Source: Candidatus Electrothrix rattekaaiensis (GTDB lineage: Bacteria > Desulfobacterota > Desulfobulbia > Desulfobulbales > Desulfobulbaceae). Taken from it: a DNA stretch of 64,000 nt. The position numbers and the translations under genes were made by a program. The stretch's first letter is position 1. Each line of letters begins with the position of its first letter. The stretch is taken from positions 1 through 64,000 of the forward strand of contig JAVQMD010000005.1 in assembly GCA_032595675.1 (NCBI GenBank), in the 5' to 3' direction. Shown here one piece after another: positions 11,409 through 58,840 of the stretch. The notes beneath the pieces are model-generated. The model did not search any database. It was given only the letters and a program-made list of their open reading frames with translations, and was not told where the DNA came from.

Positions 11409-11451
11409 ATAATGAAAAGGGCGGGCACCCTGCCGACCATTTTATATAAAC

Positions 11452-13629: not shown

Positions 13630-13635
13630 TATATT

Positions 13636-14442: not shown

Positions 14443-14447
14443 GAGTA

Positions 14448-15590: not shown

Positions 15591-15711
15591 CGTCAAGATA
15601 TTTTTTGTTTGCAAAAACCAACCGGTTATGCCAGTATTTGAAGACGATTTCCTGTCCTGTTCCACTGCGGAGCAGGATATTTTTCTTTCAACCTTAGTAA
15701 AAAAGAGCACC

Positions 15712-16263
15712 ATGAACTGGTTTAAAAAAAAGGAGAAACCCTCTCAGGAGGAGAATGACAAGCAAGATGTCACCCGTGGTCTGCTTATCTTTGCCCATCC
15801 GACAACGGTTATTGATGTTGAACATATTTTGCGGGACGAAGGATATGAAATTCGGGTTGTCAGCCCGCCACCATCTTATCGTACTGGCTGTGACCTCAGT
15901 GTGGAGTTTCCCATGGAGGCAGAAGCCGCTATCACCGAGTTGTTGAATAACGCGAATCTTACGCCTTTGGATGTGGTTCCCATTACCTCTAAGGGGATGG
16001 AGCCACTCCATTTTGTTCGGAAGAAATGGTATGGTAAGTACCTGATGGTCAGAGCGGCGAATATGAAGATAACTGTGGATACCGAGACCAAGATCATCGT
16101 CAATATTTCCGGTGGGGGCTGTCCCGATGTCCCGTATCTGGCAACGGAACTCATCGGTCAGCACATCAACGAGGCTCCTGATCTTACCGAGGTCGGTTTT
16201 TCTCTCTGTGCCTACTCATTGAACACTGCCCGGGAAGAGCTTGTCCGGGAAATAGGAGCGTAA
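15712..16263 (+). CDS. DUF3343-like protein
   Basis: The ATG at 15712 (MNWFKKKEKPSQEENDKQD) is preferred; the frame stays open upstream to 15565 without a good ribosome site. The product has about 183 residues. Residues 22-65 (GLLIFAHPTTVIDVEHIL, then PPPSYRTGCDLSVEF) resemble DUF3343 proteins, which carry a conserved Cys in the position of the C in RTGCD. A second part follows with VNISGGGCPDVPYLA. DUF3343 proteins have been linked to sulfur or selenium handling, which I treat as tentative. It ends 2 bases before the kinase-like gene, so the two are probably functionally paired. Confidence 0.6.
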   Translation: MNWFKKKEKPSQEENDKQDVTRGLLIFAHPTTVIDVEHILRDEGYEIRVVSPPPSYRTGCDLSVEFPMEAEAAITELLNNANLTPLDVVPITSKGMEPLHFVRKKWYGKYLMVRAANMKITVDTETKIIVNISGGGCPDVPYLATELIGQHINEAPDLTEVGFSLCAYSLNTAREELVREIGA

Positions 16264-16265
16264 TT

Positions 16266-17132
16266 ATGTTGTTATTAGCCGGAGCAGTTCCTGTTGAAGA
16301 TCTTCCGTTTCTGGTAGGGCCTGTTACCTATAATGAAAAGGGAATCACCATTGACGGGCACAAGCTTGCCATCAATCGGGGTAATGAAGCCATGATGACC
16401 TCGGCCTGTATCACCTGTCGGGAGTACGGGGTAGATGCACCTCTTGGTTTAGTGGCTGGAGATATTGGTAGACGTAGGGGAAGCGAAGCGATTTATAAGC
16501 ATTTGGCTGAGCATCTCCCGGAAATGGGGGCCAAGGTGCTGACCCTCCACTACGTGATGCCGGATTTGAAGCTGAATAAAAAGATATTGGCCACCATTGA
16601 TACCATGGAGCATAAACCGATGATGATTGCCGATGCAGGCAGCATGTACGTGGCCAAGGCAGGGGGCGATGCCCATTATTACGATGTGTTCACTCCGGAT
16701 TTGGGCGAGGCCGCTTTTCTTGCTGATGATAAGGCCGATCATCCCAGCTTCACCCGAGGCTTTATCTTCAATATGGAAGAGGATGTGCCGGAGTTGATTC
16801 GTCGGGCCTATGCTGGCAATAATGCCACGAAGACGATGTTTGTCAAAGGGGCTATTGATTATATCTGTCAGGACGGTGAGATCGTTGATACCATCAAGGA
16901 ACCGAGCATTGAGACGATGGAGCCCATCGGCGGGACCGGAGATCTCATTACCGGGATGATCAGCGGCTTACTCTATGCAGGAGTTGACCCTTTACAGGCA
17001 TGTCGGATTGCTGGCCGGGCCAATCGTGCTGCTGGCGAGCTTTCTCAGCCGACGCCTGCAACCCAGGTTCAGGAAATCCTGCGTTGTTTACCCAGAGCCT
17101 TGGATAAGGTGCATAAGGATTTGGGGCTGTAG
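16266..17132 (+). CDS. Sugar-kinase-like / NAD(P)H-hydrate dehydratase-like protein
   Basis: This 288-residue protein has a ribokinase-like fold. The C-terminal motif GGTGDLITGMISGLLYAG is the anion-hole/phosphate signature of the YjeF C-terminal (ADP-dependent hydrate dehydratase) and ribokinase families, with the GTGD aspartate as catalytic base. VFTPDLGEAAFLAD matches the usual TPxxxE motif. The N-terminal NnrE epimerase domain of full YjeF is absent. The adjoining DUF3343-like gene suggests a specialised kinase or dehydratase and not general NADHX repair. The substrate is unknown. Confidence 0.65.
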   Translation: MLLLAGAVPVEDLPFLVGPVTYNEKGITIDGHKLAINRGNEAMMTSACITCREYGVDAPLGLVAGDIGRRRGSEAIYKHLAEHLPEMGAKVLTLHYVMPDLKLNKKILATIDTMEHKPMMIADAGSMYVAKAGGDAHYYDVFTPDLGEAAFLADDKADHPSFTRGFIFNMEEDVPELIRRAYAGNNATKTMFVKGAIDYICQDGEIVDTIKEPSIETMEPIGGTGDLITGMISGLLYAGVDPLQACRIAGRANRAAGELSQPTPATQVQEILRCLPRALDKVHKDLGL

Positions 17133-17139
17133 GGCTGTA

Positions 17140-17171
17140 GGGACAGGCCCCCGTGCCTGTCCCCTCTTTCT
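17140..17171 (+). terminator. Hairpin terminator made of a dispersed palindrome
   Basis: GGGACAGGC (17140-17148) pairs with GCCTGTCCC (17155-17163), followed by CTCTTTCT. It lies just after the sugar-kinase-like gene. It belongs to the same TAGGG-type palindrome family as 23778-23799, 41103-41123 and 44234-44255. Confidence 0.65.
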
Positions 17172-17225
17172 CCTGATTCGCTGCAACTCACCGTTCAGCA
17201 CACCGTTCAGCACACAGAATACCCA

Positions 17226-18128
17226 ATGGAAAATTTCATCATCACCATAACCTTCCTGCTCATCGGGATGCTTATCAAACGCCTCCCCAACTTCCCCGAC
17301 GAGACAGGGAACGCCCTGAATCTCTTTGTTATCTATATATCCCTGCCCGCCTTGGTTCTCCTTAAAATCCCGGAGCTGGCTTTTTCCCAGGATCTCCTGA
17401 TTCCTGCGATTATGCCGTGGGGCATGCTCCTGTTCTCCAGTGCTTTGATCCTTATTTTATCCAAGCTCTTTCATTGGGATCGGCCAACAACCGGCTGCCT
17501 CTTACTCATTATTCCCCTAGGTAACACCTCCTTCTTGGGTATCCCTATGGTCAAGGCGTTTTTCGGCGAAGAGGCCATCTCCTATGCTCTGATCTATGAT
17601 CAGTTGGGCTCCTTTCTGGCCTTGGCGACCTACGGCTCTCTTATCCTTGCTGTTTATGGAGCAGGTGAGAACAAACCCAGTATCCGGACTGCGCTTAAAA
17701 AGATTATAACCTTTCCCCCTTTTATCGCTCTGATCCTGGCCTTTGCTTTGAAATCCTTTGCCTATCCTGCTACAGTGACCAACCTGCTCAAAACAATGTC
17801 TGCCACCCTGGTTCCCTTGGTCATGGTGGCAGTGGGTTTTCAACTCACCCTCAAGCTGAATAAACACGTCATGTCTCAGCTGAGTATAGGGCTTGCAATA
17901 AAGTTGATCATCGCGCCCTTAGTAGCCTTGTTGATCTGCAAGATATTCGGCCTGAAAGGCGAGGCTGTGCAGGTATCAATCTTTGAGGCTGGCATGCCGC
18001 CAATGGTCTCGGCAGGGGCCTTGGCCATCCTCGCCAACCTGTCGCCCGCTCTGACTGCTGCTCTGGTCGGCATAGGGATTATTCTCAGCTTTGCGACCCT
18101 GCCGCTGCTTTATCAGCTGATGGTATGA
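17226..18128 (+). CDS. AEC (auxin efflux carrier) family transporter
   Basis: This 300-residue integral membrane protein has about ten hydrophobic segments. The N-terminal IGMLIKRLPNFPDETGNALNLFVIYISLPALVLLKI and the central LIIPLGNTSFLGIPMVKAFFGEEA are diagnostic for the AEC family, as is FEAGMPPMVSAGALA in the C-terminal half. Family members export or exchange small organic acids such as malate or malonate; the substrate here cannot be told. It stands alone, after a terminator hairpin and before a toxin-antitoxin module. Confidence 0.88.
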   Translation: MENFIITITFLLIGMLIKRLPNFPDETGNALNLFVIYISLPALVLLKIPELAFSQDLLIPAIMPWGMLLFSSALILILSKLFHWDRPTTGCLLLIIPLGNTSFLGIPMVKAFFGEEAISYALIYDQLGSFLALATYGSLILAVYGAGENKPSIRTALKKIITFPPFIALILAFALKSFAYPATVTNLLKTMSATLVPLVMVAVGFQLTLKLNKHVMSQLSIGLAIKLIIAPLVALLICKIFGLKGEAVQVSIFEAGMPPMVSAGALAILANLSPALTAALVGIGIILSFATLPLLYQLMV

Positions 18129-18234
18129 AAAATCGTGAATGTTTCCCATCCAACACAAACAAGAGATCTGCTTCCCCCCTGTAACCAGGAAATGCCTGCA
18201 CAAAATGGCAACAACCAATATAGGATAGGATGAA

Positions 18235-18495
18235 ATGCAAACACAACACCAACTCAATATACAATACCCGCAAATTTGGCTTGATGCGCTTCAGGTAACA
18301 CAAGATTCATTTGAAGAAGAAGCCAAAATGGCTATGGCGGTAAAACTTTTTGAGATGAAACGGCTTTCTTCGGGCATGGCAGCAAAGCTTGCCGGAATTC
18401 CGAGAGTTCTCTTTCTGCTGAAGCTCCATCAATACGGTGTACCGATGATGGACCTTGATGAAGAGGAATTTGCAGAGGACATAAAAAATGCCTGA
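18235..18495 (+). CDS. UPF0175-family antitoxin
   Basis: This 86-residue protein has the UPF0175 pattern: a central FEEEAKMAMAVKLFEMKRLS helix, then SSGMAAKLAGIPRVLFLLKL, which forms the helix-turn-helix-like part, and a C-terminal acidic tail (DLDEEEFAEDI). It overlaps the PIN toxin gene by 8 bases and is preceded by AGGATAGG. UPF0175 proteins typically neutralise DUF3368 PIN-type RNases and repress their shared promoter. Confidence 0.85.
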   Translation: MQTQHQLNIQYPQIWLDALQVTQDSFEEEAKMAMAVKLFEMKRLSSGMAAKLAGIPRVLFLLKLHQYGVPMMDLDEEEFAEDIKNA

Positions 18496-18982
18496 CTCCA
18501 GAAAAATCGTCATAAACACCGGCCCTCTCCTTGCTTTGATCGCCGGAATGGGAAATTTAAATATACTGGATTCTCTCTACGAACGGGTTATTGTCCCCTT
18601 TGAAGTCTGTGGAGAAATTTTAAGCGGCGGTTCTGCGAGTTTCGGAATCCAGGAATTCAGTGCTGCGGACTTTTTAACCAAAATCGATCATCCCGCAGAA
18701 ATATATCCGTATCTACAAAATTCTTTGGATTTAGGCGAAAGCTCTGTCATACAGACTGCACTCGACAACACAATACAAACCGTATGCATTGACGAGACTG
18801 TCGGCAGAAGAATTGCCCGTCTGAACGGACTGAAGCTGACTGGTTCACTCGGCATTATGATCCGAGCCAAACGCGAAGGGCATCCGTTCCTGCTGCATGA
18901 TGCAGTGGAGCGAATGCGGGCGCAAGGCATCTGGTTAAGTGACCGACTTGTTTCATTTGCTTTACAGCAAGCCGGTGAATGA
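18488..18982 (+). CDS. DUF3368 PIN-domain toxin
   Basis: This 164-residue protein begins with VINTGPLLALIAGMGNLNIL, the first acidic/TGP motif of DUF3368 PIN domains. The other acidic residues are in LGESSVIQTAL (about residue 78-88) and CIDETVGRRIA. These metal-binding residues make a ribonuclease active site. It is translationally coupled to the UPF0175 antitoxin upstream. The junction sequence GCAGAGGACATAAAAAATGC is nearly repeated at 19916-19935, where a decayed second copy seems to have existed. Confidence 0.85.
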   Translation: MPDSRKIVINTGPLLALIAGMGNLNILDSLYERVIVPFEVCGEILSGGSASFGIQEFSAADFLTKIDHPAEIYPYLQNSLDLGESSVIQTALDNTIQTVCIDETVGRRIARLNGLKLTGSLGIMIRAKREGHPFLLHDAVERMRAQGIWLSDRLVSFALQQAGE

Positions 18983-48134: not shown

Positions 48135-48485
48135 ATGAAAGGTCTTGTCTTACTCATGGCAATCATGCTCACAGGAACGGCCCAGGCCGATGTGTCGCCG
48201 GAACAACAGCCGGAAGTGGCGCATTTGCTCAGCTTTGTTCGGTCCTCGCCCTGCACGATCAACCGAAACGGGGCAACCCATCAGGGCGAAGAAGCGGCTG
48301 CCCATATTCGAAAAAAATACGATTACTACAGGAACAAGATCAAGACAACAGAACAGTTTATCGAATACTCGGCAAGTAAGAGCACGATGAGCGGAAAATA
48401 CTATACTGTCCACTGTGATGGGCAGGAGCCGATACGGACACGGGACTGGTTGCTTCGGGAATTGGAAGAATATAGGGAAAAGTAG
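48135..48485 (+). CDS. DUF5329 periplasmic protein
   Basis: ATG 48135 is preferred: it follows AAGGGAAAGAAACA and starts a clear signal peptide (MKGLVLLMAIMLTGTAQA, cleavage before DVSP). The mature part has about 98 residues with the DUF5329 pattern: VAHLLSFVRSSPCTINRNG, AAAHIRKKYDYYRNKI, and SGKYYTVHCDGQEPI then WLLRELEEY. Two Cys residues probably form a disulfide. The function is unknown. The 21-bp repeat array starts 20 bases after its stop. Confidence 0.8.
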   Translation: MKGLVLLMAIMLTGTAQADVSPEQQPEVAHLLSFVRSSPCTINRNGATHQGEEAAAHIRKKYDYYRNKIKTTEQFIEYSASKSTMSGKYYTVHCDGQEPIRTRDWLLRELEEYREK

Positions 48486-48504
48486 GGAAAAGGGGATGTT
48501 TCAA

Positions 48505-48861
48505 TGGGTTAATTGCCACTAACAAAAGGTTCTCGGTTATCAAGAGAAGGTTATTTGCTCTTAACAAAAGGTTGTTGATAGCTGACAAAAGGTTCTCGGT
48601 TATCAACAGAAGGTTGTTTGCTCTTAACGAAAGGTTGTTGAGAGCTGGCAAAAGGTTCTCGGTTATCAACAGAAGGTTGTTTGCTCTTAACGAAAGGTTG
48701 TTGGTAGCTAACAAAAGGTTCTCGGTTATCAAGAGAAGGTTGTTTGCTCTGAACAAAAGGTTATTGGTAGCTAACAAAAGGTTCTCGGTTACCAAGAGAA
48801 GGTTGTTTGCTCTTAACGAAAGGTTGTTGGTAGCTGGTAAAAGGTTCTCAGCTATCAAGAG
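48505..48861. repeat. Array 2 of 21-bp tandem repeats with a 63-bp higher-order period (17 units)
   Basis: Three 21-bp unit types alternate in fixed order: AAGGTTCTCGGTTATCAA+CAG, AAGGTTGTTTGCTCTTAA+CGA, AAGGTTGTTGGTAGCTAA+CAA. The triplet recurs about five times. Plus-strand frames read as heptads (KRFSVIN, RRLFALN, ERLLVAN); the minus strand is also open over 174 codons as heptads (TENLLLA, TNNLSLR, ANNLLLI). Neither frame has a convincing start with a ribosome site. The 63-bp copies are far more alike than the 21-bp units, so the array has expanded recently by triplets. Confidence 0.85.
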
Positions 48862-49064
48862 GAACGTTTTGATAAAGAGCAAGGATGTGTCTCCGAGTGA
48901 AAATCCTTTGTCGCAGAAGGAAAAACCTGTATATCTTCCCTTTTTTTCTCGATAAGCATGTTCTTTATTCCTTGACAGGCATCAGGAAACGATTTAAACA
49001 GATTAATTGGTCCCTACAACTGCCTTTTCTCTCAGGCAAAATCCTTCATCAAGGAGGACATCTC

Positions 49065-49302
49065 ATGGCCTACAAACGCAAATCATCTCAAGTCGTCGCG
49101 GATGCCTAAGAACGGTTCGGTGATCTGCGGGCAATGACTTTAAGGCGGCGGAAAGGATCTTCGTGATTTGTCTTCGCAGATGCTTTCCGGGGTAAAAGTG
49201 AAGTACGGGAGGGACAGCAATGAGTATGAAATGGCGGGTGGAACTCGGTTGAGTGATAGACATCGGAAATCGCATGGTGGGGGGAAGAAGCCGGGGGAAT
49301 AG
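49065..49302 (+). pseudogene. Remnant of a small conserved gene, broken by a stop codon and a frameshift
   Basis: A good ribosome site (AAGGAGGACATCTC) precedes ATG 49065, which reads MAYKRKSSQVVADA and then TAA at 49107-49109. After the stop, the same frame gives ERFGDLRAM. A +1-shifted frame then reads GGKDLRDLSSQMLSGVKVKY, then GRDSNEYEMAGGTRLSDRHR and KSHGGGKKPGE, with a stop at 49300-49302. Small proteins with this start and this EYEMAGGTR end are familiar from other bacteria as hypothetical proteins. The remnant is shorter than I would expect, so an internal deletion is likely too. Confidence 0.6.
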
Positions 49303-49404
49303 TTCGGGCAACTCAGTAAGGCTTTTTTTTGCCAGACGAGATTATCCTAACCTTAAAAACAACGCATTTATAATTTGTAAGTGCCATTGGCATACACTAG
49401 AGAG

Positions 49405-49881
49405 ATGGAGCCAACCGAAAAAGAGAATTGGAAATGCAATAAGTATTACATAATAGCTCTTTTTTTATCGATTTTACTTTTATTGGTTTCACCTCCTTAT
49501 TGCGAGGTTATCTATAAGAAATATATAGACATTAGAGATGCTGCTAACGGTGACCCCAATGTGCAATTTTTGTCTTCTGTTTTTACTTTATTTGGTTTTT
49601 CTATAATTTATGTACTCGGGACACTTCTTAGAACACTTCGGAATAATTATATTAAAACAGAGGAGGAGTTCAAAGAACAGATACACGTAATGTCGGAGGA
49701 AAGAAAATATTTTTCTCAAGAGAAAGATTTGATTAATGAGCTAAGAGAAAAGGAGAAAGAGCTTGCGGGAAATAAATATGAAGGAAAAAAAATAGATAAC
49801 CTGCTTGACAGGATTAAAGATATCAAAAAGCAAATTAAAGACGTTCAAGACAAATTAAGCGTTTTAAATAGATCAATATGA
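49405..49881 (+). CDS. Membrane protein with cytoplasmic coiled coil, first gene of a three-gene NTPase island
   Basis: The start is taken as ATG 49405 (MEPTEKENWKCNKYYI); a GTG at 49381 is possible. The product has 158 residues. Two membrane segments (about residues 14-31 and 54-74) are followed by a long charged coiled coil (FKEQIHVMSEERKYF, then LINELREKEKELAG and IKDIKKQIKDVQDKL). It overlaps the next gene by ATGA. The base composition is much more A+T-rich than in the flanking genes. It is probably the membrane anchor or effector of the system formed with the two downstream NTPases. No known family was recognised. Confidence 0.65.
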   Translation: MEPTEKENWKCNKYYIIALFLSILLLLVSPPYCEVIYKKYIDIRDAANGDPNVQFLSSVFTLFGFSIIYVLGTLLRTLRNNYIKTEEEFKEQIHVMSEERKYFSQEKDLINELREKEKELAGNKYEGKKIDNLLDRIKDIKKQIKDVQDKLSVLNRSI

Positions 49882-51257
49882 ATAAGATTGCAAATCGCAA
49901 AAAAGAGCTTAACCTCTTAGAGAAGAGCATAGATAAAAAACACATAGATACATATGGGAATCTCGGTATAGGCAAGACAGCATTTCTTCATTCTTTATGC
50001 GGGAAAATATCGTGCGGAAAATATCTTCCTATTCATGTCCAATTAATAAAGGTTAGTAAATTAATAGCTTTTTTAGATTTGATTGCTAAGGAATTTGACG
50101 AATTCTTTCAGCAAGAGAACTACTTCTTTACTTTCAGGAAATATATTTACAGTGATGGAGATTATGATATTGATAAGGCGAATGTTTTGTTTGGAGCCGC
50201 CCTTAATGCCGCCACGGAATCTATAAGTATAGCATTATGTTTTGATGGCACAGAAAAAGTGCCTTGTTCTATATGGGAAGATTTTGAAGAAAACATATTG
50301 AGATTTCATATAGAAATCGGTGAGGAAACAGACTCAAGGTTACGCATTATCACTGCTGGCCAAAAGCGAAGGAAGTGGACTTTCTTCCGAATGAAGAAGC
50401 AAGTAGAGGCATGTTGCTTAGATTCACTTGACAGAGAAAGCACCAAGGAAATGGTGCAACTGCTTGCGAGACAAGAAGAAATAGATTTTGACATAGAAAA
50501 TAGCAAGACTATCATAGACGATATTTATTCATTAACTCTAGGGCATCCCAAAAGCATTAAGCTTATAATTCAATATTGGAAAGAGCTGCAAGTTGATAAC
50601 AAGAAATACCAAGAAGGTATTGCAGCACTGCTCATCGAAAAATACATTCAGCCAGAGTTTATTGATCAAGCTAAGGGACTGATAGAGGATGAGCATTATC
50701 CTTCCTCTGCATCTTTACTTTCTCTCTTACAACATCTCGCTCCGTTACGTTTCATCTCAACCAAGCTTCTCCGAGAGGCTCTATCTCACTTATCTTCCTT
50801 TTCTTCTTTCTACAGTAAGAAACGGTCATTTTTTTTCAGCAAGCTCCTTCGTGCGTTACAAGGTGAACATCTTCTTGACTGGAACGAGGATAGGGAACGA
50901 TATGAATTTCCGGCTATTGTCCGGCATATCTTGTTAGAGGACTTGAAACAGAACAAAACGGAAAACTTGATTAAACTTCATCAGGAAATAGAAAGGGTAT
51001 ATCAAAAACTGACCTTTGAGAGCGTTGTTGATCGGCATGCTGATTTTATAGCACAGCTATATCATACTATTTCGTGGCAGGAAATTGATAACGCCAAAAG
51101 AAAGGAAGGCCATGATCTTGAAGAAACTCTGTGGAATGAAATCGATAAATACCTTAAAAAATACGGAGAGGATGCAATATCTCTCAGAAGCTTGTTAGAA
51201 GCAGATGATTATTTCAATAAGATGATGAATTGGGAAATTTTTTTTAGATCATTATAA
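49878..51257 (+). CDS. STAND-like P-loop NTPase, second gene of the island
   Basis: This 459-residue protein overlaps the membrane protein gene by 4 bases. It begins NRKKELNLLEKSIDKKHIDT, with the P-loop YGNLGIGKTAFLHSL (residues 26-40), a probable Walker B around SISIALCFDGTEKV, and LRIITAGQKRRKW as a sensor-like strand. LTLGHPKSIKLIIQYW corresponds to the GxP motif of STAND-type ATPases. A helical winged-helix-like region (SLLQHLAPLRFISTKLL) follows. The short C-terminus carries no obvious repeat or effector. A+T-rich, like its neighbours. Confidence 0.68.
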   Translation: MNKIANRKKELNLLEKSIDKKHIDTYGNLGIGKTAFLHSLCGKISCGKYLPIHVQLIKVSKLIAFLDLIAKEFDEFFQQENYFFTFRKYIYSDGDYDIDKANVLFGAALNAATESISIALCFDGTEKVPCSIWEDFEENILRFHIEIGEETDSRLRIITAGQKRRKWTFFRMKKQVEACCLDSLDRESTKEMVQLLARQEEIDFDIENSKTIIDDIYSLTLGHPKSIKLIIQYWKELQVDNKKYQEGIAALLIEKYIQPEFIDQAKGLIEDEHYPSSASLLSLLQHLAPLRFISTKLLREALSHLSSFSSFYSKKRSFFFSKLLRALQGEHLLDWNEDRERYEFPAIVRHILLEDLKQNKTENLIKLHQEIERVYQKLTFESVVDRHADFIAQLYHTISWQEIDNAKRKEGHDLEETLWNEIDKYLKKYGEDAISLRSLLEADDYFNKMMNWEIFFRSL

Positions 51258-51281
51258 AAAATAAATTAATAGTGAAGTACC

Positions 51282-54200
51282 ATGTCTGAATATGTAAGGT
51301 CTGATATATTTGTCGGTCGTACTGAAGAACAGGATGCTGTTCATAGTTTTATCCAGTCGGATAATAATTCTCGACTGCTGTGTATTTATAGCTCTGGTGA
51401 GGGCGGTTTTGGAAAAACACAGCTTCTTTTACAGGTTCGTGCCGCCTACCGGCAAGAAGAGGAAAATATAGTTGTCGGGCATCAGCTGATTGACTTTTAC
51501 CACCTTGATATGCAGAGAAAAATTGGGGTCATTGAAGCTCTTGCCAGGCAACTTGATCTCACCGAATCATTGCATCTTATAGCTGAATATCGTCAGAAAA
51601 GTATTTCCTTGGAAGACGATGAATACATCGAACAGCTCTTTAAAAAATTTTCAGCAGAATATCAAGAGTATGTTTCCAGGAATAAAGAAAGAACTTTTGT
51701 CTTTCTTTTTGACAGTTATGAACATATTCAACGCATCACTGACAAAGATGCGCATTCGACAGATCATTCCCATTGGATTGAAACCAAACTTATTCCTCTC
51801 TTAGTAAATGAACTCAATGTCCGAATCATCCTTGCCGGACGTCATCTGCCTACTGAGCTTGTTTCCGAGAAACCAATAGAACTCAAGCCGTTTTCTCCAG
51901 CTACCTCTGAAAACTTTTTAAAAGAGGTCTTACGAGAAGAGGGAGGTATTGCTCTCAAAGAAATGCAGGAACTGTACCGACTCACAGATGGGCATCCTAT
52001 CCGTTTGGCTCTTGCAGCTGATTGGCTCAGGCATTCCTATGACCCTGTGAACAAGTTACTTGACGGAATAGAGCCGGGAAAAGCATTTGAAGGCAGACTC
52101 ATCAAATATATTCGACAACAGCTTGAAGAAAACGAGAGTTTTTTTATTTCAAGCTATATCGCCATTGCCTATCAGCGGTTAAACGCTGATATCCTGCACC
52201 ATCTCACAGGAGAAAAAAAAGAGAATTGCGAAAAATATATAAAACAGATGCGGACGTGGTCGTTTATTAAACCCAAGGGCGAGGACTCTGTCATCCTGCA
52301 TGATGTTATGCATTCGCTCTTTGATAAATACATCAAAAGTGAAGATCCCGGGTTTTATCGTCAAAACTTGGAGCTTCTTATAGGGTATTACAAAAAAGTA
52401 ATCTTCGCGGAAAAGCAGACCTTATCTGAGACAGAACAAGAGAAATACATCCTTGAGATGGTGGACTATGGTTTTCAACTCGATTTTGACCAAGGCGTTG
52501 AGCGATTCTGCACCATCTTTGATCAGGTTATGGAGGATGGTCAGTATCATTTTGCATCGAATTTCTTACTGAAGGCTGCCGAAGATCTTCAGTTCCGCTA
52601 TAAAGGGCAATCGAACACGCTTAATTTCCTCAAAATCGATGCTAGAAAGATAGAGTATGACATTGAGACGGCTGAAGCTCCGGCAAAGGGCTTGGCTCGT
52701 GCTAATAGAATTATTGATCAGTATAAAGATAATGAACGGTGGAAGGAGTCAGACATTGAAGGGCTGATCCTGCTGAAAAAAGGCACGGCCTTATTCTACT
52801 TAAGCCGGTTTCGGGAAGCTATCAAAATCTTTCAGCAGGCGAGGTATATTCTCCTATGCAGCGATGATGGGTTAAATGCCCATTGGGCAACCAGCTGGAC
52901 AGGCTATACCTATTATCAGTTAGGTGATTTCCAACATGCGGAAGAGGAACTCAAGAAGAGCCGAGAGCTCTTTTATGAGAAAGCAGAGTCGGTAGTTCTG
53001 GAGGTTCAAGTATGGGATGAAGATAGAAAGAATGAATACCGCCGGATCTTACAGGGATACCAGATCAGTCTGGTTAATCTGGTACTTGTTTACTTTTCTA
53101 CAGGACGCTTATACGAAGCAACACGTCATGCTCGTATTTTTCTTCATATTAATGAAAATTTACAACGTAACGACAGGGAAATCGCCCGTGCGAAGGCAAC
53201 GCTGTCCCTAACAAGTTGGGTCATGGGGTATCGACTAGAAGCAAAGCAAGATCTTGATGATGCCTTGAAACTTGCTGGAGACGATCCCGTACTTGCAGGC
53301 CGTATAAAGATAGAGCAATTACGGCAGCATTTTCATGAATCAGGCTTTTTGTATTCTCATTTTCTTGAATATTATCGAGCTGATGATTTCAGAGAGGAGC
53401 TGGGGAAGATTCAAGACAGGCATCAGGAAAAATGCTTATCCATAGTATCTGACAACGAACAAATCCAAGATGTTGTCCAGGGGATTGAAGAGCTGATCGT
53501 TAAAAAGGATCTGGGAATCACCAAAGAGTTGCTTGCAGCCTATCTGGTGCAGGCGGATTTATTGCTTTTGAGAGTGCCACAAGTTTCTTGGAGTACCATA
53601 GAAAAAGTTTTGAGAAAAGGGCTTCAGAAGAATATTAGAAATAAAGATCTTCAGCTCTACGAGAAAATTCAATCACTTGGAAACCTTGTCAGGCTGTGCT
53701 ATTTTGCGAAAGCTTGGAATACATCAGATGCTCAAGAGGTATCTGATAAGTTAGATGAGTATAAAAAGAAGTTTTTAGAAGCGTTTGAGCGAATGAGCCA
53801 TATAAAAACAAAAAAAGATGAATCGTTATATCCAGAGTTGCTGGCTCGATATAATCTTCTCTATGGAAATATACTTTTTGATGATGCAATAAAAAATACT
53901 GATTTAGAGCAGCTCCAGGAAGCAATAAATTACTATTTGAATGCAGCTGACCTCTTAAAAGATTTTGTTTTGTTAAAGGATAATCCTTTTTATATCATTC
54001 GGCATCGCCTAATTACGTTTATTGAGAGCATTGAAGGGGATAAGCAAGATAGGATAGACAAAAATAAGTATTTGAAAATTAGAGGAGGCTATAGCTGTTC
54101 ACCAGATACTATGAATTTATTTGAAGTTATGTTTGACTCCACTCTATTATGCCTTCCTTCGACGAAGGTAGAAGATATAGAAGCAGATGCAAAGAAGCTA

Positions 54201-55445
54201 CATGATGAGGAGCAACACGTTAAATTTTTAGAAAAATTTATTTGGGCAGAGTCGCTGACAGATGCGCTGAAAAATGGTATTGAGCGAAAAGAGGTCAAAC
54301 CAAAGCAACGAATACGCCTGCAGCTCTTGCTGGCTATGTGGCTTATGAGGAAATCTCGAATTTATAGAGGGATGAGGACTGGAAATATTGATTTTGCTTT
54401 GAAGTCCTATAAGGAAGCAGAGCAAGCTATCGAAGTGTTAACAAGAGAACTTGGTGAAGACGCAATTGAAATTCTATCTCTGAAGGGGCGTCTATATGCT
54501 GGGATAGGTACAGTGCTTTATCGGCAGGGATCTTATGAGGAATTTCTGGAGTTTTACCAGAAGGATGAGCTGGAACTAACGGCTACCTTATTTAAAAGAG
54601 ATTACAAAGAACATACTGATCGCGCACGGGATTTTTTGTTTACAGGGAGAAATTTACTAAAACAGGCGCATGAAAAAATAAAAAAAGGGAATGCAGAACT
54701 TCGGATTGAGAAATTACCTTACCTGAATGCACGGTGGTTAGGGGAAATTAATTTTAGAATTGGTGAATTTCGGTGGGTAAATAGAGAATTTGAAAAGTCT
54801 AAAAAAGATTTCATAGAAGCTGTTGACCAATACAAAAAAGGAAAGGATGCTCCTATTGATCGAAGGCTTGATGCTATGGAGAGCTATATAACAGCTGTGT
54901 ATTTTTCTAAAGAAAATAAGCTGAAACTTTCAAAAGTTGATGAGCAATGCACATCATTTATTCGAGAAATAGAAAAGAACGAACAAGAATGTCCAACTAT
55001 CCTTGCTAAGCTGCGACTCACACAAGGTGATGATATTTTTAATATCCTTTTTAGTCTTGACGAAAAACAAATTAAAGATCAAAGATTCTACCAAGATATT
55101 AAGTATTCTTTACGAGGGGAATATCGTAACGATATCCATGCAGGCAGGTTGCATAAAGAGGTTCAAAAATCACTACGCAGGATGGTGATTTGTTATGTGC
55201 AAGCGTGTAGCCTTATGAAACAAGCTCAGAGTGAACGTAATTTTGCAGTCTCTGTTAGAGTCATAATCAGGAGGATCAGAATGCTTTCTGATGACCTTGT
55301 GATAGAAAAAATACATTCTGTTCTTGGTGAAATGTGGCGAGAATATGAAGGGTTGCATGATTCCAAGGTGGTGCTGAAAACAGTGTTAGAGTTTGCTCGT
55401 GTGCTGGAGGGCCTTACAAAGAAACCTTCTAATAACCCTTCATAA
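51282..55445 (+). CDS. Large STAND-type NTPase with helical (TPR-like) repeats, third gene of the island
   Basis: This 1387-residue protein starts 24 bases after the previous gene. The N-terminal NTPase has FVGRTEEQDAVHSFI, the P-loop YSSGEGGFGKTQLLLQV (about 36-52), FVFLFDSYEHIQR (Walker B, Asp144), VRIILAGRHLP and LTDGHPIRLALAADWL (GxP motif). From about residue 450 the protein is helical with TPR-like pairs (AIKIFQQARYILL, then HWATSWTGYTYYQLGDFQHA). Such receptors sense a ligand through the repeats and oligomerise on ATP binding. No nuclease, TIR or protease effector is fused, so the output is likely one of the two partner proteins. Confidence 0.75.
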   Translation: MSEYVRSDIFVGRTEEQDAVHSFIQSDNNSRLLCIYSSGEGGFGKTQLLLQVRAAYRQEEENIVVGHQLIDFYHLDMQRKIGVIEALARQLDLTESLHLIAEYRQKSISLEDDEYIEQLFKKFSAEYQEYVSRNKERTFVFLFDSYEHIQRITDKDAHSTDHSHWIETKLIPLLVNELNVRIILAGRHLPTELVSEKPIELKPFSPATSENFLKEVLREEGGIALKEMQELYRLTDGHPIRLALAADWLRHSYDPVNKLLDGIEPGKAFEGRLIKYIRQQLEENESFFISSYIAIAYQRLNADILHHLTGEKKENCEKYIKQMRTWSFIKPKGEDSVILHDVMHSLFDKYIKSEDPGFYRQNLELLIGYYKKVIFAEKQTLSETEQEKYILEMVDYGFQLDFDQGVERFCTIFDQVMEDGQYHFASNFLLKAAEDLQFRYKGQSNTLNFLKIDARKIEYDIETAEAPAKGLARANRIIDQYKDNERWKESDIEGLILLKKGTALFYLSRFREAIKIFQQARYILLCSDDGLNAHWATSWTGYTYYQLGDFQHAEEELKKSRELFYEKAESVVLEVQVWDEDRKNEYRRILQGYQISLVNLVLVYFSTGRLYEATRHARIFLHINENLQRNDREIARAKATLSLTSWVMGYRLEAKQDLDDALKLAGDDPVLAGRIKIEQLRQHFHESGFLYSHFLEYYRADDFREELGKIQDRHQEKCLSIVSDNEQIQDVVQGIEELIVKKDLGITKELLAAYLVQADLLLLRVPQVSWSTIEKVLRKGLQKNIRNKDLQLYEKIQSLGNLVRLCYFAKAWNTSDAQEVSDKLDEYKKKFLEAFERMSHIKTKKDESLYPELLARYNLLYGNILFDDAIKNTDLEQLQEAINYYLNAADLLKDFVLLKDNPFYIIRHRLITFIESIEGDKQDRIDKNKYLKIRGGYSCSPDTMNLFEVMFDSTLLCLPSTKVEDIEADAKKLHDEEQHVKFLEKFIWAESLTDALKNGIERKEVKPKQRIRLQLLLAMWLMRKSRIYRGMRTGNIDFALKSYKEAEQAIEVLTRELGEDAIEILSLKGRLYAGIGTVLYRQGSYEEFLEFYQKDELELTATLFKRDYKEHTDRARDFLFTGRNLLKQAHEKIKKGNAELRIEKLPYLNARWLGEINFRIGEFRWVNREFEKSKKDFIEAVDQYKKGKDAPIDRRLDAMESYITAVYFSKENKLKLSKVDEQCTSFIREIEKNEQECPTILAKLRLTQGDDIFNILFSLDEKQIKDQRFYQDIKYSLRGEYRNDIHAGRLHKEVQKSLRRMVICYVQACSLMKQAQSERNFAVSVRVIIRRIRMLSDDLVIEKIHSVLGEMWREYEGLHDSKVVLKTVLEFARVLEGLTKKPSNNPS

Positions 55446-55478
55446 TAAAGCAATACACTGATACTCTCTCTTCTTCTC

Positions 55479-55508
55479 TTGCCGTAAAGCTCTCTTTTAA
55501 GCTATACT
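55479..55508 (+). promoter_or_regulatory. Candidate sigma-70 promoter for the peptide/radical SAM pair
   Basis: TTGCCG (55479-55484), an 18-base spacer and TATACT (55503-55508) lie about 36 bases before the ATG of the small peptide gene. The start site would be near 55515, leaving a short leader with no strong ribosome site. The assignment is by consensus only. Confidence 0.45.
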
Positions 55509-55543
55509 GGTAAGAGAAGATAAATCCTTTACCATAACTCATT

Positions 55544-55711
55544 ATGTCTACATCTGAAAAGTATCTGGCAACGCTCTACCCATCCATACCTCCCCAGCTC
55601 AATATTAAAATCTCCATGAGCCATAGCAGTAAAACTCAAAAAAGTCACGGAGGACAAAGCAAGGAATTCTCAGAGCTTGCCAAAAAGACTTCAATACTCA
55701 GAAGTCACTGA
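55544..55711 (+). CDS. Candidate RiPP precursor peptide, 55 residues
   Basis: ATG 55544 opens a frame whose TGA (55709-55711) overlaps the ATG of the radical SAM gene by one base, so the two are translationally coupled. The peptide starts MSTSEKYLATLYPSIPPQLN (possible leader), continues IKISMSHSSKTQKSHGG, and ends with a polar basic segment (SKEFSELAKKTSILRSH). A Gly-Gly pair lies near residue 37. There are no Cys residues, so thioether rings are unlikely; Ser, Thr, Lys, His or aliphatic positions would be the targets. It is unlike any precursor I recognise. The status rests on position and coupling. Confidence 0.5.
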   Translation: MSTSEKYLATLYPSIPPQLNIKISMSHSSKTQKSHGGQSKEFSELAKKTSILRSH

Positions 55712-56928
55712 TGTTTTCCCCGTCCGCCCCTATTTCCTTCTCTGTCGAGCTAACAAACGCCTGTCCGAACAGTTGCCAAGGATGCGCTAACTCTTGGAAT
55801 AAAAAGCACCAGGAATCCCTCAAAGATTGGAAGACAGTCCTCGACAGGATAGCCCCTCCTGAACATCGTCAGAAATACGCGGAACTCATTCGCCTGACCG
55901 GCGGAGAACCCACCCTGCATAAAGATTTCCCGGCCATCATAGAGTATATCGACAGCTTTGATATCGACTATGCTGTCTTCACCTCCGGGCGTTGGCAGAA
56001 TGACTTATTGCCCCTTTTTATATCCTGCAACAATCTCACAGGACTGCTCATCAGCCTGCATGGCAAAGATGCTCCAACACATGATGCCTTTGTTCAGTCA
56101 GCAAATGCCTTTGAAGAAACCTGCATAACGATTCAGCGTGCAACAGAGGCAGGTATTGAGGTATTTACCAACTCGGTACTCACTCAGGATGTCTGCGAGC
56201 AGCTTGATGATATCATTGCTCTCTCTCAAAAACTCGGGGCGAACTATGCTGTTTTTAATCGCTACTTGGGGCCTCCGCACCGACAGGAACCTGCTGATTC
56301 AACCCTGCGCGACACTATAGCCGCCATTGAAAAATACCAGGGTCAAGGAATCCAATGTCGTATGGGCAACAGCGTTCCTCCTTGCTTTATCGAGACTACA
56401 TCAGAGGGAGCAAACAGCGGCATAGAGCATTGTGTCATCTCGCCGCAGGGATGGGTCAGGCCGGACAGCACCATGCCCTATGTCTTCGGTAACCTCTTTG
56501 AGGACTCCATAGAAACGATCTGGAAGTCGAAAGAAGCTGAATCGTATAGAAACGCTTTGCCGGACACCTGTTTACAATGCGTTGCCCTGCCGCAATGCCG
56601 AGGCGGCTACCGCCTGCCGACAGAAAAAGAGCAGGCCTTTCAACCTGACCGGCTCATGCGGGAGCCATTGACGCAAGTCCCCGTCCATCAAGTTGATCTT
56701 AATCTGCAATGGAAACCAATCCCGCTCTTTAAAAATATTCGCAAAGAAGGATTCGGTTATCTCATAACTCGCTATAATTACTCCATCCCCGCGAGTGAGC
56801 ATGCGTATCCCCTTTTAACAAAAATAGACGGGACAATGACCTTGGCTCAATTAGAAGATCAATTCGGCACAGACTGTTTAGATTTTATCGGCTATCTCTA
56901 TCAGAATCGATTTGTTCACTTTCAGTAG
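55711..56928 (+). CDS. Radical SAM/SPASM-type maturase with C-terminal PqqD-like domain
   Basis: This 405-residue protein has the radical SAM cluster motif ELTNACPNSCQGCANSW (Cys18, Cys22, Cys25) and LIRLTGGEPTLHKDF. The SPASM-like region around residues 230-300 has EHCVISPQGWVRPDS, FGNLFEDSIETIWKS, and CLQCVALPQCRGGYR, supplying Cys ligands for an auxiliary Fe-S cluster. Residues 350-405 (YNYSIPASEHAYPLLTKIDG then MTLAQLEDQFG) resemble a PqqD winged-helix RiPP recognition element. It probably modifies the peptide encoded just upstream. A protease or exporter gene is not adjacent. Confidence 0.82.
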   Translation: MFSPSAPISFSVELTNACPNSCQGCANSWNKKHQESLKDWKTVLDRIAPPEHRQKYAELIRLTGGEPTLHKDFPAIIEYIDSFDIDYAVFTSGRWQNDLLPLFISCNNLTGLLISLHGKDAPTHDAFVQSANAFEETCITIQRATEAGIEVFTNSVLTQDVCEQLDDIIALSQKLGANYAVFNRYLGPPHRQEPADSTLRDTIAAIEKYQGQGIQCRMGNSVPPCFIETTSEGANSGIEHCVISPQGWVRPDSTMPYVFGNLFEDSIETIWKSKEAESYRNALPDTCLQCVALPQCRGGYRLPTEKEQAFQPDRLMREPLTQVPVHQVDLNLQWKPIPLFKNIRKEGFGYLITRYNYSIPASEHAYPLLTKIDGTMTLAQLEDQFGTDCLDFIGYLYQNRFVHFQ

Positions 56929-56956
56929 AGAAGACCCGGCTCATCCTTCGATAAAT

Positions 56957-56995
56957 ACGGGACGCCAATTAACCCTGAAACACTCACCGGCAAAC
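56957..56995. repeat. Short dispersed repeat with GGGACG core, copy 3
   Basis: ACGGGACGCCAATTAACCCT, then GAAACACTCACCGGCAAA, matches the copies at 5231-5275 and 58010-58057, lacking the TACC of the core. It is followed directly by the terminator-like hairpin and the antitoxin gene. Confidence 0.55.
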
Positions 56996-56996
56996 A

Positions 56997-57033
56997 AGCC
57001 CCTGAGTCGAGCATGATACAGGGCCTTGTTTGT
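56997..57033 (+). terminator. Terminator-like hairpin downstream of the radical SAM gene
   Basis: AAGCCCCTG and CAGGGCCTT pair with one mismatch across a GAGTCGAGCATGATA loop, then TGTTTGTCTC. It is a diverged copy of the terminator at 6299-6336 (shared loop AGTCrAGCATGAT) and precedes the paralogous antitoxin gene, as that one does. Confidence 0.6.
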
Positions 57034-57111
57034 CTCTCCATCATTCATCTTGCCCTCCTCGCTCACATAATGTAACATTCTTTTGTGGAAAAAGAGATAA
57101 AACGGAGAAAG

Positions 57112-57273
57112 ATGATTTCGGATAAATCGTACAGCATGAAACAGGCGGCGCGGCAGTTGCAGAATATTGTCAATTTTGTCGAACAGGGACAATCTGTCGG
57201 ACTGGCTCGCGATGAAGAACCGGTTGTATACTGGTCTCAACAGGAAACGAAACGATATTTACGCAAAAACTAA
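57112..57273 (+). CDS. Phd-like antitoxin of a PIN toxin module
   Basis: The start at ATG 57112 (MISDKSYSMKQAARQLQNIV) follows GGAG and agrees with the paralogue at 6415; an upstream GTG frame is not supported. The product has 53 residues, including NFVEQGQSVGLARDEEPVVYW. The short Phd/YefM-like N-terminal DNA-binding fold is visible, with a short toxin-binding C-terminus. The PIN toxin gene starts 24 bases downstream. It likely represses this operon together with the toxin. Confidence 0.7.
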   Translation: MISDKSYSMKQAARQLQNIVNFVEQGQSVGLARDEEPVVYWSQQETKRYLRKN

Positions 57274-57297
57274 AGCAGCATCAGAGAAGCAAAAGAC

Positions 57298-57768
57298 ATG
57301 AATGTCTATGTCGAAACATCAATAATAAGTTATCTTACTGCACGTCCAACCAATGATATTCGGGCCGCAGCACATCAAAATGCCACTCTGGAGTGGTGGT
57401 CATCAAGAAGAAGCGAGTTTACGCTGTATATCTCGGAATTCGTGACCGCCGAAGCTGCGGAAGGAAATGCCGAGGCAGCTAACCGAAGACTTACAGCAAT
57501 TGCAGATTTGCAGCTGCTTCAGGCTACGCCGGAAGTGATGTCCCTTGCTGAGAAGCTGTTACATGCAGGTGCGTTGCCCCGAAAAGCCTATGGTGATGCG
57601 TTTCATATCGCTATTTCTGCGGTTCACGGTATGGATTATTTGCTGACCTGGAATTGTAAACACATAGCCAATGCCGTAATGAGGCCGAAAATCGAAGCTG
57701 TTTGCATGATTGAAGATTATGCCCCTCCGATCATCTGCACACCGGAAGAACTTATGAGTGAGGAGTGA
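57298..57768 (+). CDS. PIN-domain toxin
   Basis: This 156-residue protein begins MNVYVETSIISYLTARPTND, the VYVETSIISYL variant of the PIN start, where Glu6 replaces the usual first Asp. Other acidic residues are in EFVTAEAAEGNAEAA and AYGDAFHIAISAVHGMDYLLTWN. They form a metal-dependent ribonuclease site. It is followed within 3 bases by a small gene that usually accompanies this PIN subgroup. Confidence 0.85.
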   Translation: MNVYVETSIISYLTARPTNDIRAAAHQNATLEWWSSRRSEFTLYISEFVTAEAAEGNAEAANRRLTAIADLQLLQATPEVMSLAEKLLHAGALPRKAYGDAFHIAISAVHGMDYLLTWNCKHIANAVMRPKIEAVCMIEDYAPPIICTPEELMSEE

Positions 57769-57771
57769 GCA

Positions 57772-57954
57772 ATGCGGGAGTGGGAAGATCCTATTGTTAA
57801 AGAAACGAGAGAATTACGTGATAATTATACTTCCCGGTTCAAGGGAGATATGAAAGCAATGTATCAGGATATCCTGCGTCGACAGCAGGCGCATAAGGAG
57901 AGGCTTACAACGCTTCCGTCACGCAAGCCGAAACATCGTAACTCTTCGACATAG
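57772..57954 (+). CDS. Small partner protein of the PIN toxin, probable antitoxin
   Basis: This 60-residue protein starts MREWEDPIVKETRELRDNYT and continues SRFKGDMKAMYQDILRRQQ. Short proteins with a DPIVxExRxxR start occur directly after PIN proteins of this subgroup and are thought to be their antitoxins. With the Phd-like gene upstream, the locus has two candidate antitoxins around one toxin. The gene starts 3 bases after the toxin stop. Confidence 0.75.
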   Translation: MREWEDPIVKETRELRDNYTSRFKGDMKAMYQDILRRQQAHKERLTTLPSRKPKHRNSST

Positions 57955-58009
57955 CACGACTAGGGAAAGAGATATGATTGTGTCGTTTTGTATGAAATCA
58001 AATAAGGGA

Positions 58010-58057
58010 CGTTAAATAAGGGACGTACCCCAATTAGCCCTGAAACACTCACCAGCA
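58010..58057. repeat. Short dispersed repeat with GGGGACGTACCC core, copy 4
   Basis: AATAAGGGACGT appears twice in tandem (58010 and 58026 region) and leads into ACCCCAATTAGCCCTGAAAC, then ACTCACCAGCAAAA. It matches the copies at 5231-5275 and 56957-56995. It precedes the second DUF4160-DUF2442 module. Confidence 0.6.
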
Positions 58058-58150
58058 AAAACGACCTGCCCCGCAGTTCCTTTGAGATCAACATCCCGGA
58101 TGTTTTTTACGCAACCGCAACAATATTTCATATAAAAAGACGAGAAGAAA

Positions 58151-58411
58151 ATGCCTGAAGTGTCAAGATTCTTTGGAATCATAATCAGGATGTACTATGA
58201 TGAACACAACCCTCCTCATTTCCATGCTGAGTATCAGGGGAATAAAGCAGTGTTTGATCTTAACGGCAATATGACAAAAGGGGATTTGCAATCCAAAACA
58301 GCAAGAAAACTCGTGCGAGAATGGGTTGATTTGCACAACGAAGAGATTTCCCGAAATTGGGATTTGGCAATGAACGACCGGCAACTCAATAAGATTGCTC
58401 CTCTTGATTGA
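58151..58411 (+). CDS. DUF4160 protein, module 2
   Basis: This 86-residue protein has [34 protein letters not shown], and [20 protein letters not shown]. It is a clear paralogue of the protein at 19070-19342, with the conserved PHFHAEY. A GAGAAG site precedes the ATG. The DUF2442 partner follows after 13 bases. As in module 1, a GGGACGTACCC repeat lies upstream. Confidence 0.86.
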
Positions 58412-58424
58412 GCAGGAGATTTCT

Positions 58425-58673
58425 ATGTGGAATATGAATGATGTTAAAAAGATAGCATATCAGAATGATTATATCTACTATGTTGAGTTCGATGACGGGA
58501 CAAACGGAAAAATTGATTTCTCACCGTATTTAAGCCGGGGGACGGTTTTTAAACCGCTTTCCGATCTTAATTTCTTTAAGCAGGCCACAGTTGAAGGGGG
58601 AACAATCACCTGGCCTAATGGTCTGGATATCGCCCCGGAAACCCTGTATAAAAAATGTGAACAAATTAACTGA
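58425..58673 (+). CDS. DUF2442 protein, module 2
   Basis: The start is placed at ATG 58425 ([20 protein letters not shown]) after AGGAGATTTCT. The product has 82 residues with [40 protein letters not shown] and APETLYKKC, the DUF2442 pattern. It is probably the functional partner of the DUF4160 protein. The module is separate from the PIN locus upstream but forms one defence-like cluster with it. Confidence 0.86.
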
Positions 58674-58687
58674 CCGAACACTTGACG

Positions 58688-58804
58688 GTGCCGATTACAT
58701 TTTACGTTTCTTTCTTTGCGATATTTCATAAAACGATAGCTGATTTGACAGGATTGTCGATGGAGGCAGTTGAAAAGATCGCAGATAAAACTTGCAATGA
58801 GTAA
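58688..58804 (+). pseudogene. Possible C-terminal remnant of an Rpn-like gene
   Basis: A short frame reads IADLTGLSMEAVEKIADKTC before its stop. The LTGLSxExVEKI ending is common at the C-terminus of Rpn/PD-(D/E)XK transposase-like proteins. Nothing upstream belongs to it. The evidence is a short motif only. Confidence 0.25.
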
Positions 58805-58840
58805 TGAATAGTTATTATCTGCGATACGAACCAGTTCGAT

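Follow-up and report, generated by a model that had tools for sequence, protein, structure and literature searches.

Relation to Described Peptide-Maturation and Conflict Systems

The closest described counterparts of the locus reported here are the FxSxx systems, for which Kaur et al. (2020, PMC7159879) propose that a processed peptide acts as a toxin or as a signal amplifying a conflict system that contains STAND proteins (signal transduction ATPases with numerous domains). Conflict systems are said there to be preponderant in multicellular prokaryotes, and the FxSxx type has been described mainly from actinobacteria. We have analysed a stretch of 64,000 nucleotides of Candidatus Electrothrix rattekaaiensis (assembly GCA_032595675.1, contig JAVQMD010000005.1, positions 1 to 64,000; hereafter the window), in which a Cys-free peptide gene and a radical S-adenosylmethionine (SAM) enzyme gene form the end of a five-gene operon. 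We consider it likely that both constitute the peptide-maturation module of a STAND-like, i.e., NLR-like (nucleotide-binding, leucine-rich-repeat receptor-like), conflict cassette located in a mobile island of Ca. Electrothrix; rather than acting as an ordinary antibiotic, the modified peptide probably belongs to a device for defence or signalling. What can be read from the sequence comprises a peptide family, a radical SAM/SPASM enzyme with a domain for which the fold of a RiPP (ribosomally synthesized and post-translationally modified peptide) recognition element (RRE) is predicted, a linked P-loop protein with tetratricopeptide repeats (TPR), an ATPase, and a variable first gene.

The FxSxx-COOH systems (NF040586 FxSxx_TPR, NF041717 HaaT) resemble this cassette in having a small precursor whose conserved C-terminus includes a Ser, a SPASM radical SAM enzyme, a coupled STAND (AP-ATPase)/TPR protein and sometimes a TIR (Toll/interleukin-1 receptor) protein; the coupled nucleoside triphosphatase (NTPase)-TPR protein is present in the window. 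In contrast, the precursors of the cassette end in L-x-S-[HN] instead of F-x-S-x-x, and the window cassette has neither metallopeptidase nor vWA/MoxR genes, but an RRE-like domain fused to the enzyme and an additional ATPase. None of its five genes encodes a zincin-like metallopeptidase, a comparison in which flanking genes have been annotated at some of the other loci only. The TPR protein of the window gives no FxSxx_TPR match at E 1, and among three relatives scanned against this family (cut-off 300 bits), locus L028 reaches 54.6 bits (in an NB-ARC half), L032 28.1 bits, and L037 shows no match at E 0.01. Because the terminal motif differs, the metallopeptidase is missing, and the TPR family cut-off is not reached, the cassette is regarded as an FxSxx-like variant and not as a member of these systems.

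Other known systems share single parts. Like the maturases PqqE, MftC (mycofactocin) and SkfB, whose substrates are peptides, the enzyme combines radical SAM and SPASM domains, and PqqE and SkfB are its closest PDB profiles; unlike them, it lies far from the equivalog cut-offs, carries the RRE-like domain at its C-terminus, and occurs with another precursor and a STAND-like linkage. Bacterial STAND/NLR-like systems have in common with the cassette a P-loop, a TPR superstructure, a first gene that varies between TIR, possibly trypsin-like and membrane types, a low-GC (guanine plus cytosine) receptor half in the Electrothrix cassettes, a mobile island and receptor turnover, whereas the peptide and maturase module, which is better conserved than the receptor, sets the cassette apart. 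Prokaryotic viperins (pVip), matched at 37 bits, are likewise radical SAM enzymes in a defence-like context, but the window enzyme carries SPASM. Among the titles and abstract openings listed for the literature on cable bacteria (radical SAM, RiPP, defense), on STAND NTPases with radical SAM enzymes, and on FxSxx, the cassette has not been described. The cassette would link RiPP chemistry with NLR-like proteins in filamentous cable bacteria, outside the FxSxx setting published mainly from actinobacteria, and offers a compact, testable system with regard to the chemistry of the enzyme on a Cys-free peptide ending L-x-S-H and to the response of the receptor to this peptide. A peptide read by a bacterial immune receptor would, if true, represent a new way of sensing.

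A Peptide Family Conserved Beside the Enzyme

A first-pass annotation of the window had described a Cys-free peptide of 55 residues joined to a radical SAM gene by a one-base overlap of stop and start codons, which has been confirmed: the 55-codon open reading frame (ORF) occupies 55544-55711, its stop TGA lies at 55709-55711, and the ATG of the enzyme gene (55711-56928) starts at 55711. These, the promoter-like hexamers and all other genes and motifs of the cassette given below are located on the + strand. The arrangement has been compared over 11 strong loci, which are made up of 8 genes in 7 of the 8 genus genomes, together with UASB270 (L034), a sulfur-cave metagenome-assembled genome (MAG) labelled Dichelobacter nodosus (L037), and the MAG Bin_11_3. 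Upstream of five Ca. Electrothrix enzymes of about 50% identity, one or two ORFs of 51-59 amino acids (aa) have been found, of which A-type peptides occur in L027, L028, L029, and L030 and B-type peptides in the same four loci and in L032. Ratios of nonsynonymous to synonymous substitution (dN/dS) range from 0.15 to 0.33 in all six A-peptide pairs and from 0.14 to 0.39 in all ten B-peptide pairs, and by this codon-level measure both types are under purifying selection. The upstream frame, on whose conservation in homologous loci the first-pass annotation had staked its proposal, recurs accordingly, as a family peptide stands next to or near 8 of the 11 strong loci, the window included. The small peptide family is genuine and conserved beside related enzymes.

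Common to the family are the blocks YL..YY, I-K-V-x-L and a C-terminal L-x-S-[HN], and there is no conserved Cys. In the window peptide these correspond to KYLATLY (leader block 1, 55559-55579), IKISM (leader block 2, 55604-55618), for which a role as the strand that docks to the RRE is plausible, and ILRSH (55694-55708), the probable core. With I-L-R-S-H the window peptide keeps Leu at position -4 and Ser at -2, and its relatives end in L-G-S-[HN], L-E-S-S or L-E-S-H-G. Of the core previously proposed, a segment beginning SHGG together with internal Ser-His pairs, little has been retained by this comparison: HGG occurs in two of the four A-type peptides and the internal pairs are not conserved, whereas the C-terminal L-x-S-H is. 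Conservation of the C-terminal half next to the enzyme hence holds for L-x-S-[HN], but the rest of that core varies.

The family extends beyond the genus. A hidden Markov model (HMM) of nine peptides detects the UASB270 peptide (18332-18508 of L034) at E 1e-9, which ends in KKNIFMLESHG and overlaps the end of a receptor remnant. In the cave MAG, a 53-aa ORF ending in QCHALESS precedes the enzyme match by 12 nt; it gives no match within E 50 with the same HMM and has been assigned because of this position and its HALESS end. The spacing between peptide and enzyme is one or three bases in the window, L027, L030, and L032. At L026, an apparent single deletion has taken the peptide together with the first enzyme codons, including the CxxxCxxC motif. 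This locus is a second cassette copy in genome G007 (contig C1, about 1.4945-1.4957 Mb), in which the remaining enzyme frame is open, with 80% identity.

The Probable Maturase and Its RRE-like Domain

With 47.9 bits for Radical_SAM and 29.8 bits for SPASM, the 405-aa enzyme exceeds both Pfam cut-offs. Its cluster motif CxxxCxxC is intact (CPNSCQGC, 55762-55785), and the SPASM region (56425-56598) contains CX2CX5C. The fourth Cys of the SPASM pattern CX2CX5CX3C is replaced by Tyr in the window and in L026, by Asp in five other Electrothrix enzymes, and by Ala in L037, and is found as Cys in L031 and L034; an auxiliary cluster may have an unusual ligand or an open site.

The C-terminal domain (56671-56925) has been modelled by AlphaFold with a predicted local distance difference test score (pLDDT) of 90 and the element order EEEE-HHH-E. 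Fold comparison aligns this model with the RREs of PbtF (Z 8.5), ThcOx (8.1), TigE (7.7), PqqD (7.7), and lasso B1 (7.5), and Foldseek has given weak matches, with GdmN best (E 0.049) and the PbtF RRE at E 0.06 (probability 0.99). On the basis of its fold, the domain is predicted, with a leaning to the positive side, to resemble a RiPP recognition element. The SPASM-like and PqqD-like regions suggested by the first-pass annotation have fared unequally: the former stands above its Pfam cut-off, and the latter is recovered as a predicted RRE-like fold, while Pfam remains silent on it even at E 10 and structures not labelled as RREs tie with the RREs in the comparison (see below). A PDB-sequence search with the domain has returned nothing credible, and capsid-protein matches (best E 0.0016) have been set aside as chance.

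With regard to the class of substrate, PDB profile searches have ranked PqqE (3.4e-20) and SkfB (1.5e-16) first, both of them peptide-modifying enzymes, and SkfB also leads the fold comparison of the whole enzyme (Z 17.2). In that comparison, Z falls from 17 to 11 over 50 matches, and maturases are not strongly separated from other radical SAM enzymes. The NCBIfam matches to MftC (63 of 265 bits) and PqqE (56.9 of 381 bits) span core and SPASM, and none of the equivalogs among the matches listed reaches its cut-off. FxsB is absent from the best 25 of 52 NCBIfam matches, among the lower of which it could still stand. A grouping with enzymes that act on proteins or small molecules, which had been named beforehand as speaking against a RiPP, receives a divided answer, in which PDB profiles point to PqqE and SkfB and NCBIfam points to AhbD.

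The latter result is among those that would fit an enzyme producing a small antiviral molecule in the manner of viperin, or another metabolite, with the upstream ORF being a regulator or incidental. The PADLOC pVip models, which come without a stated cut-off, match the enzyme core with 37.4 bits, viperin structures align with Z up to 14.7, and the cassette as such is defence-like. Against this, the enzyme possesses SPASM and RRE-like domains, SkfB, SuiB, and PqqE rank at least as high as viperin, and conserved peptides under purifying selection adjoin the gene; we give this explanation a low probability. Viperins are not known to have SPASM or RRE domains.

Operon Context and the Receptor-like Protein

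The window operon runs in the order first gene, ATPase, NTPase/TPR protein, peptide, and enzyme. The first-pass annotation overlooked the STAND-like NTPase/TPR protein, the second ATPase and the variable first gene, with which peptide and enzyme form this operon, and the likely function therefore moves from a free-standing RiPP to a component of conflict or signalling.

Directly upstream of the peptide gene lies a STAND-like NTPase with TPRs (1387 aa, 51282-55445). As a P-loop NTPase with superstructure repeats, it combines a Walker A motif (GEGGFGKT) with a Pfam TPR_12 match over the cut-off (36 bits). Its conserved C-terminal domain (alignment A5, 54843-55442) has been found in seven genes within the 8 genus genomes at E 0.001, and all seven are located within 3.5 kb of a member of the enzyme family; five further weak matches fall inside the same receptor genes. 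The domain aligns at 10 of the 11 enzyme loci. G006 shows no match to it, and upstream of L031 there are related but rearranged AAA and TPR genes. A homologous receptor stands on the same strand and immediately ahead of the peptide or the enzyme in the window, L026, L029, L030, L032, L037, and L039, with L029 and L039 truncated at contig ends. In L027, likewise at a contig end, and in L028, small genes intervene between receptor and peptide, with receptor-enzyme distances of 3.4 and 1.5 kb, respectively, and in L034 the receptor is broken and located downstream of the enzyme. There, the enzyme, two TIR genes, an ATPase, the broken receptor and the peptide are scattered over 8.5 kb (10001-18508), and the UASB270 cassette is apparently decaying or rearranged.

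The own genome has 24 stretches resembling FxSxx_TPR, distributed over about 14 places outside the window contig, and G004 has 27; several such stretches can share one gene. The pairing of receptor domain and enzyme is informative precisely because STAND/TPR-like genes as such are common in the genus. The same abundance can be taken in favour of an exported RiPP, i.e., a bacteriocin or pheromone, for which the receptor operon would be a mere neighbour in a defence island, and a small precursor followed by a maturase is indeed the usual RiPP layout. Between first gene and enzyme, the window contains no transporter, peptidase or immunity gene, and the receptor family accompanies the enzyme within 3.5 kb in each of the seven genus cases, a linkage that extends to distant genomes, which renders an exported product unlikely in our view.

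The two remaining genes of the operon are upstream of the receptor. The first gene (166 aa, 49381-49881) overlaps the start of the ATPase gene, contains, on visual inspection, a coiled coil and two hydrophobic stretches, and has no Pfam match above cut-off; it is weakly similar to the first gene of L026 (26%, E 6.5e-4) and is a candidate effector or membrane partner. Candidate effector genes in relatives are two clear TIR genes upstream of the ATPase in L034 and a first gene in L028 that is weakly trypsin-like (Trypsin_2, 15 bits, below cut-off). The small P-loop ATPase (459 aa, 49878-51257, Walker A GNLGIGKT) has homologues at the same position in L026, L030, L032, and L037 and a further one in L034, that of L032 being without a Walker A pattern match. 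In L028 a distinct ATPase ORF is missing, and two Walker A motifs are found in the TPR protein.

The peptide could also be translated and left unmodified, as a small inhibitor or antitoxin of receptor or effector, in which case the enzyme would act on the large receptor. The strong variation of the peptides between loci would suit such a role, as would the position of the L034 enzyme apart from both peptide and receptor. A fused RRE-like domain, by contrast, suggests recognition of a peptide, and the spacing of one or three bases at four loci as well as the apparent joint loss in L026 couple peptide and enzyme, so that we assign very little probability to an unmodified inhibitor.

About 14 kb downstream of the cassette and past the window end (6491-10903 of L033, about 70491-74903 of contig C5), a protein of 1470 aa is encoded, in which a TIR-like start, a P-loop and repeats have been noticed by eye.

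A Probable Mobile Island and Receptor Turnover

The interval 48464-58840, which holds the cassette, is shrunk between the same flanks in two of six congeners compared: in place of its 10.4 kb, G006 has about 280 bp and G002 about 200 bp. In G007 and G004, other material has been found between matches to the same flanks, and contigs of G003 and G001 have matched the right flank only. Because of the empty sites in G006 and G002, the cassette with its neighbouring toxin-antitoxin-like genes is considered an insertion, or else it has been lost twice. The toxin-antitoxin-like genes flank the cassette at 57085-58673 and include a small ORF with a PIN-like protein (57298-57768; 23.5 bits, just under cut-off) and a DUF4160/DUF2442 pair (58151-58673).

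L028 and L032 (G004 and G007) represent one locus, as the upstream flank is 97.7% identical over 12.4 kb and the downstream flank 92.6% over 7.2 kb. Peptide B and enzyme share 90.5% DNA identity, receptors 42-44% protein identity, and no similarity has been detected between the two first genes; the break point is positioned about 15 nt ahead of the peptide-B start. As read from this alignment, the receptor half has been replaced and the peptide-B/enzyme half has been kept. Enzymes show a higher identity than receptors in all 28 pairs compared, two of the receptors being contig-cut pieces. That the receptor has been exchanged at one locus while peptide and enzyme stayed constant suggests on which part diversifying pressure acts. 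In the window cassette, the receptor half has a GC content of 32-40% and the enzyme one of 49%, and a similar step is seen in L028, L030, L032, and L026; in L037 the step is not clear (51% and 56.5%).

About 100-120 nt of the enzyme 3' end are duplicated downstream of the cassette in L028 (11831-11955) and in L031 (10572-10671, reverse complement), where the L028 copy borders two inserted small genes. G006 retains a remnant beside a different cassette. The duplicated end is a possible site of recombination or insertion.

Proposed Function and Its Weighing

In a peptide-maturation module of an NLR-like cassette, the RRE-like domain would capture the peptide via its I-K-V-x-L strand, and the enzyme would modify side chains or backbone near the peptide C-terminus. 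The finished peptide would then act on the TPR receptor as its signal, its ligand or a self-molecule that it guards, and receptor activation would fire the product of the first gene, a membrane protein here and a TIR protein or possibly a protease in relatives. One may further imagine that the NLR-like receptor has the radical-SAM-modified peptide as a built-in ligand: its conserved C-terminal domain would read the modified end L-x-S-[HN] as a token of intact self or of alarm, and the effector would be triggered when translation, SAM chemistry or iron-sulfur chemistry is disturbed, or when the peptide arrives from a neighbour cell in the filament. We regard this extension as possible, yet on the doubtful side.

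Several points weigh against reading the pair as such a module. Contact between peptide and receptor is suggested by linkage, and both the modification and the biological activity of the peptide are predictions made from sequence. The STAND class of the window protein is not firmly established, since it relies on TPR and on AAA_16 below threshold (30.1 bits, cut-off 32.6). Among relatives, NB-ARC exceeds its cut-off (34.2 bits) in L028 alone, in the fused extra ATPase half, and NACHT, nSTAND6, and NPHP3_N are all sub-threshold in the receptor of L037. In the fold comparison of the C-terminal enzyme domain, proteins not labelled as RRE tie with the RREs (2xdv Z 8.5, NovN 8.1, GdmN 7.9). Because of these ties and the unsettled STAND class, our confidence in the module has been lowered slightly, and two of the rival readings have gained a little. 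The model of the whole enzyme is poor, with a mean pLDDT of 66 and 113 residues below 50, including the cluster region, and the top NCBIfam match is AhbD of heme synthesis (78.6 of 500 cut-off bits), the best stretch of which covers residues 12-182, i.e., the core. No peptide has been recognised at L031 or L039 when these loci were inspected for family ORFs, the L039 enzyme stopping before the RRE, and a distance of 7 kb separates enzyme and peptide in L034.

The membership of the window peptide itself adds to these points. A score over three ordered blocks (YL..YY, I-K-V-x-L, and the last nine residues), from whose training the window peptide had been left out, places it first among 427 window ORFs of 35-100 aa (18.4 versus 4.6 for the runner-up), and this score is equalled by 1 of 20,000 shuffles, figures which are optimistic as the blocks had been picked from an alignment already including the window peptide. 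With the nine-peptide HMM it obtains 6.2 bits (E 1.5 among 1,947 ORFs) and is the best of 685 window ORFs, with a ten-peptide HMM 5.3 bits (E 3), one other window ORF being slightly above, and with an eleven-peptide HMM its score is matched by 30 of 4,995 shuffles. By these measures the window peptide appears as a divergent family member, weak by HMM and not significant alone, and it has been accepted because position and operon context decide in favour. A profile match of alignment A2 (4.7e-15) is circular, since A2 contains the window peptide, and has not been used. Position -6 is occupied by Ser in the window peptide and by F, Y or H in each of the 11 others, with the UASB270 peptide counted without its extra final Gly. 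Either the modified site may not be the aromatic residue, or the window copy may be drifting. A cyclophane involving the aromatic residue at -6 has been considered in this context and set aside for the window peptide, which has Ser there.

Promoter and Distribution of the Enzyme

Upstream of the peptide gene, the promoter-like hexamers TTGCCG-18-TATACT (55479-55508), put forward in the first-pass annotation as a candidate promoter, are present as described. Since 14 such sites occur in the 8.3 kb scanned and 18.5 are expected in shuffles, they are not above chance and have been dropped as evidence.

Enzyme matches of at least 360 bits are confined to Electrothrix among the 257 genomes of the class (8 genes in 7 genomes), and matches of at most 111 bits in 9 further class genomes, G005 among them, have been dropped as generic radical SAM proteins. 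At E 1e-50, the enzyme has been found in 1 of 395 phylum genomes, namely its own, in 1 of 42 genomes in the order of the cave MAG and in 1 of 4 in the phylum of UASB270, in both cases the genome itself. Viral contigs and plasmids searched have yielded no enzyme relative, and a single-query scan of genome contigs gave 27 pattern matches, none of them a relative. Four loci of 29-31% identity (L040-L043) are not part of the 11 strong loci, as L040-L042 are without CxxxCxxC in the frames read and L043 starts mid-gene. These distant enzyme relatives retain SPASM and RRE-like parts, and H-[TSQ]-N repeats are present in the ORF upstream of the enzyme in L040 and L042.

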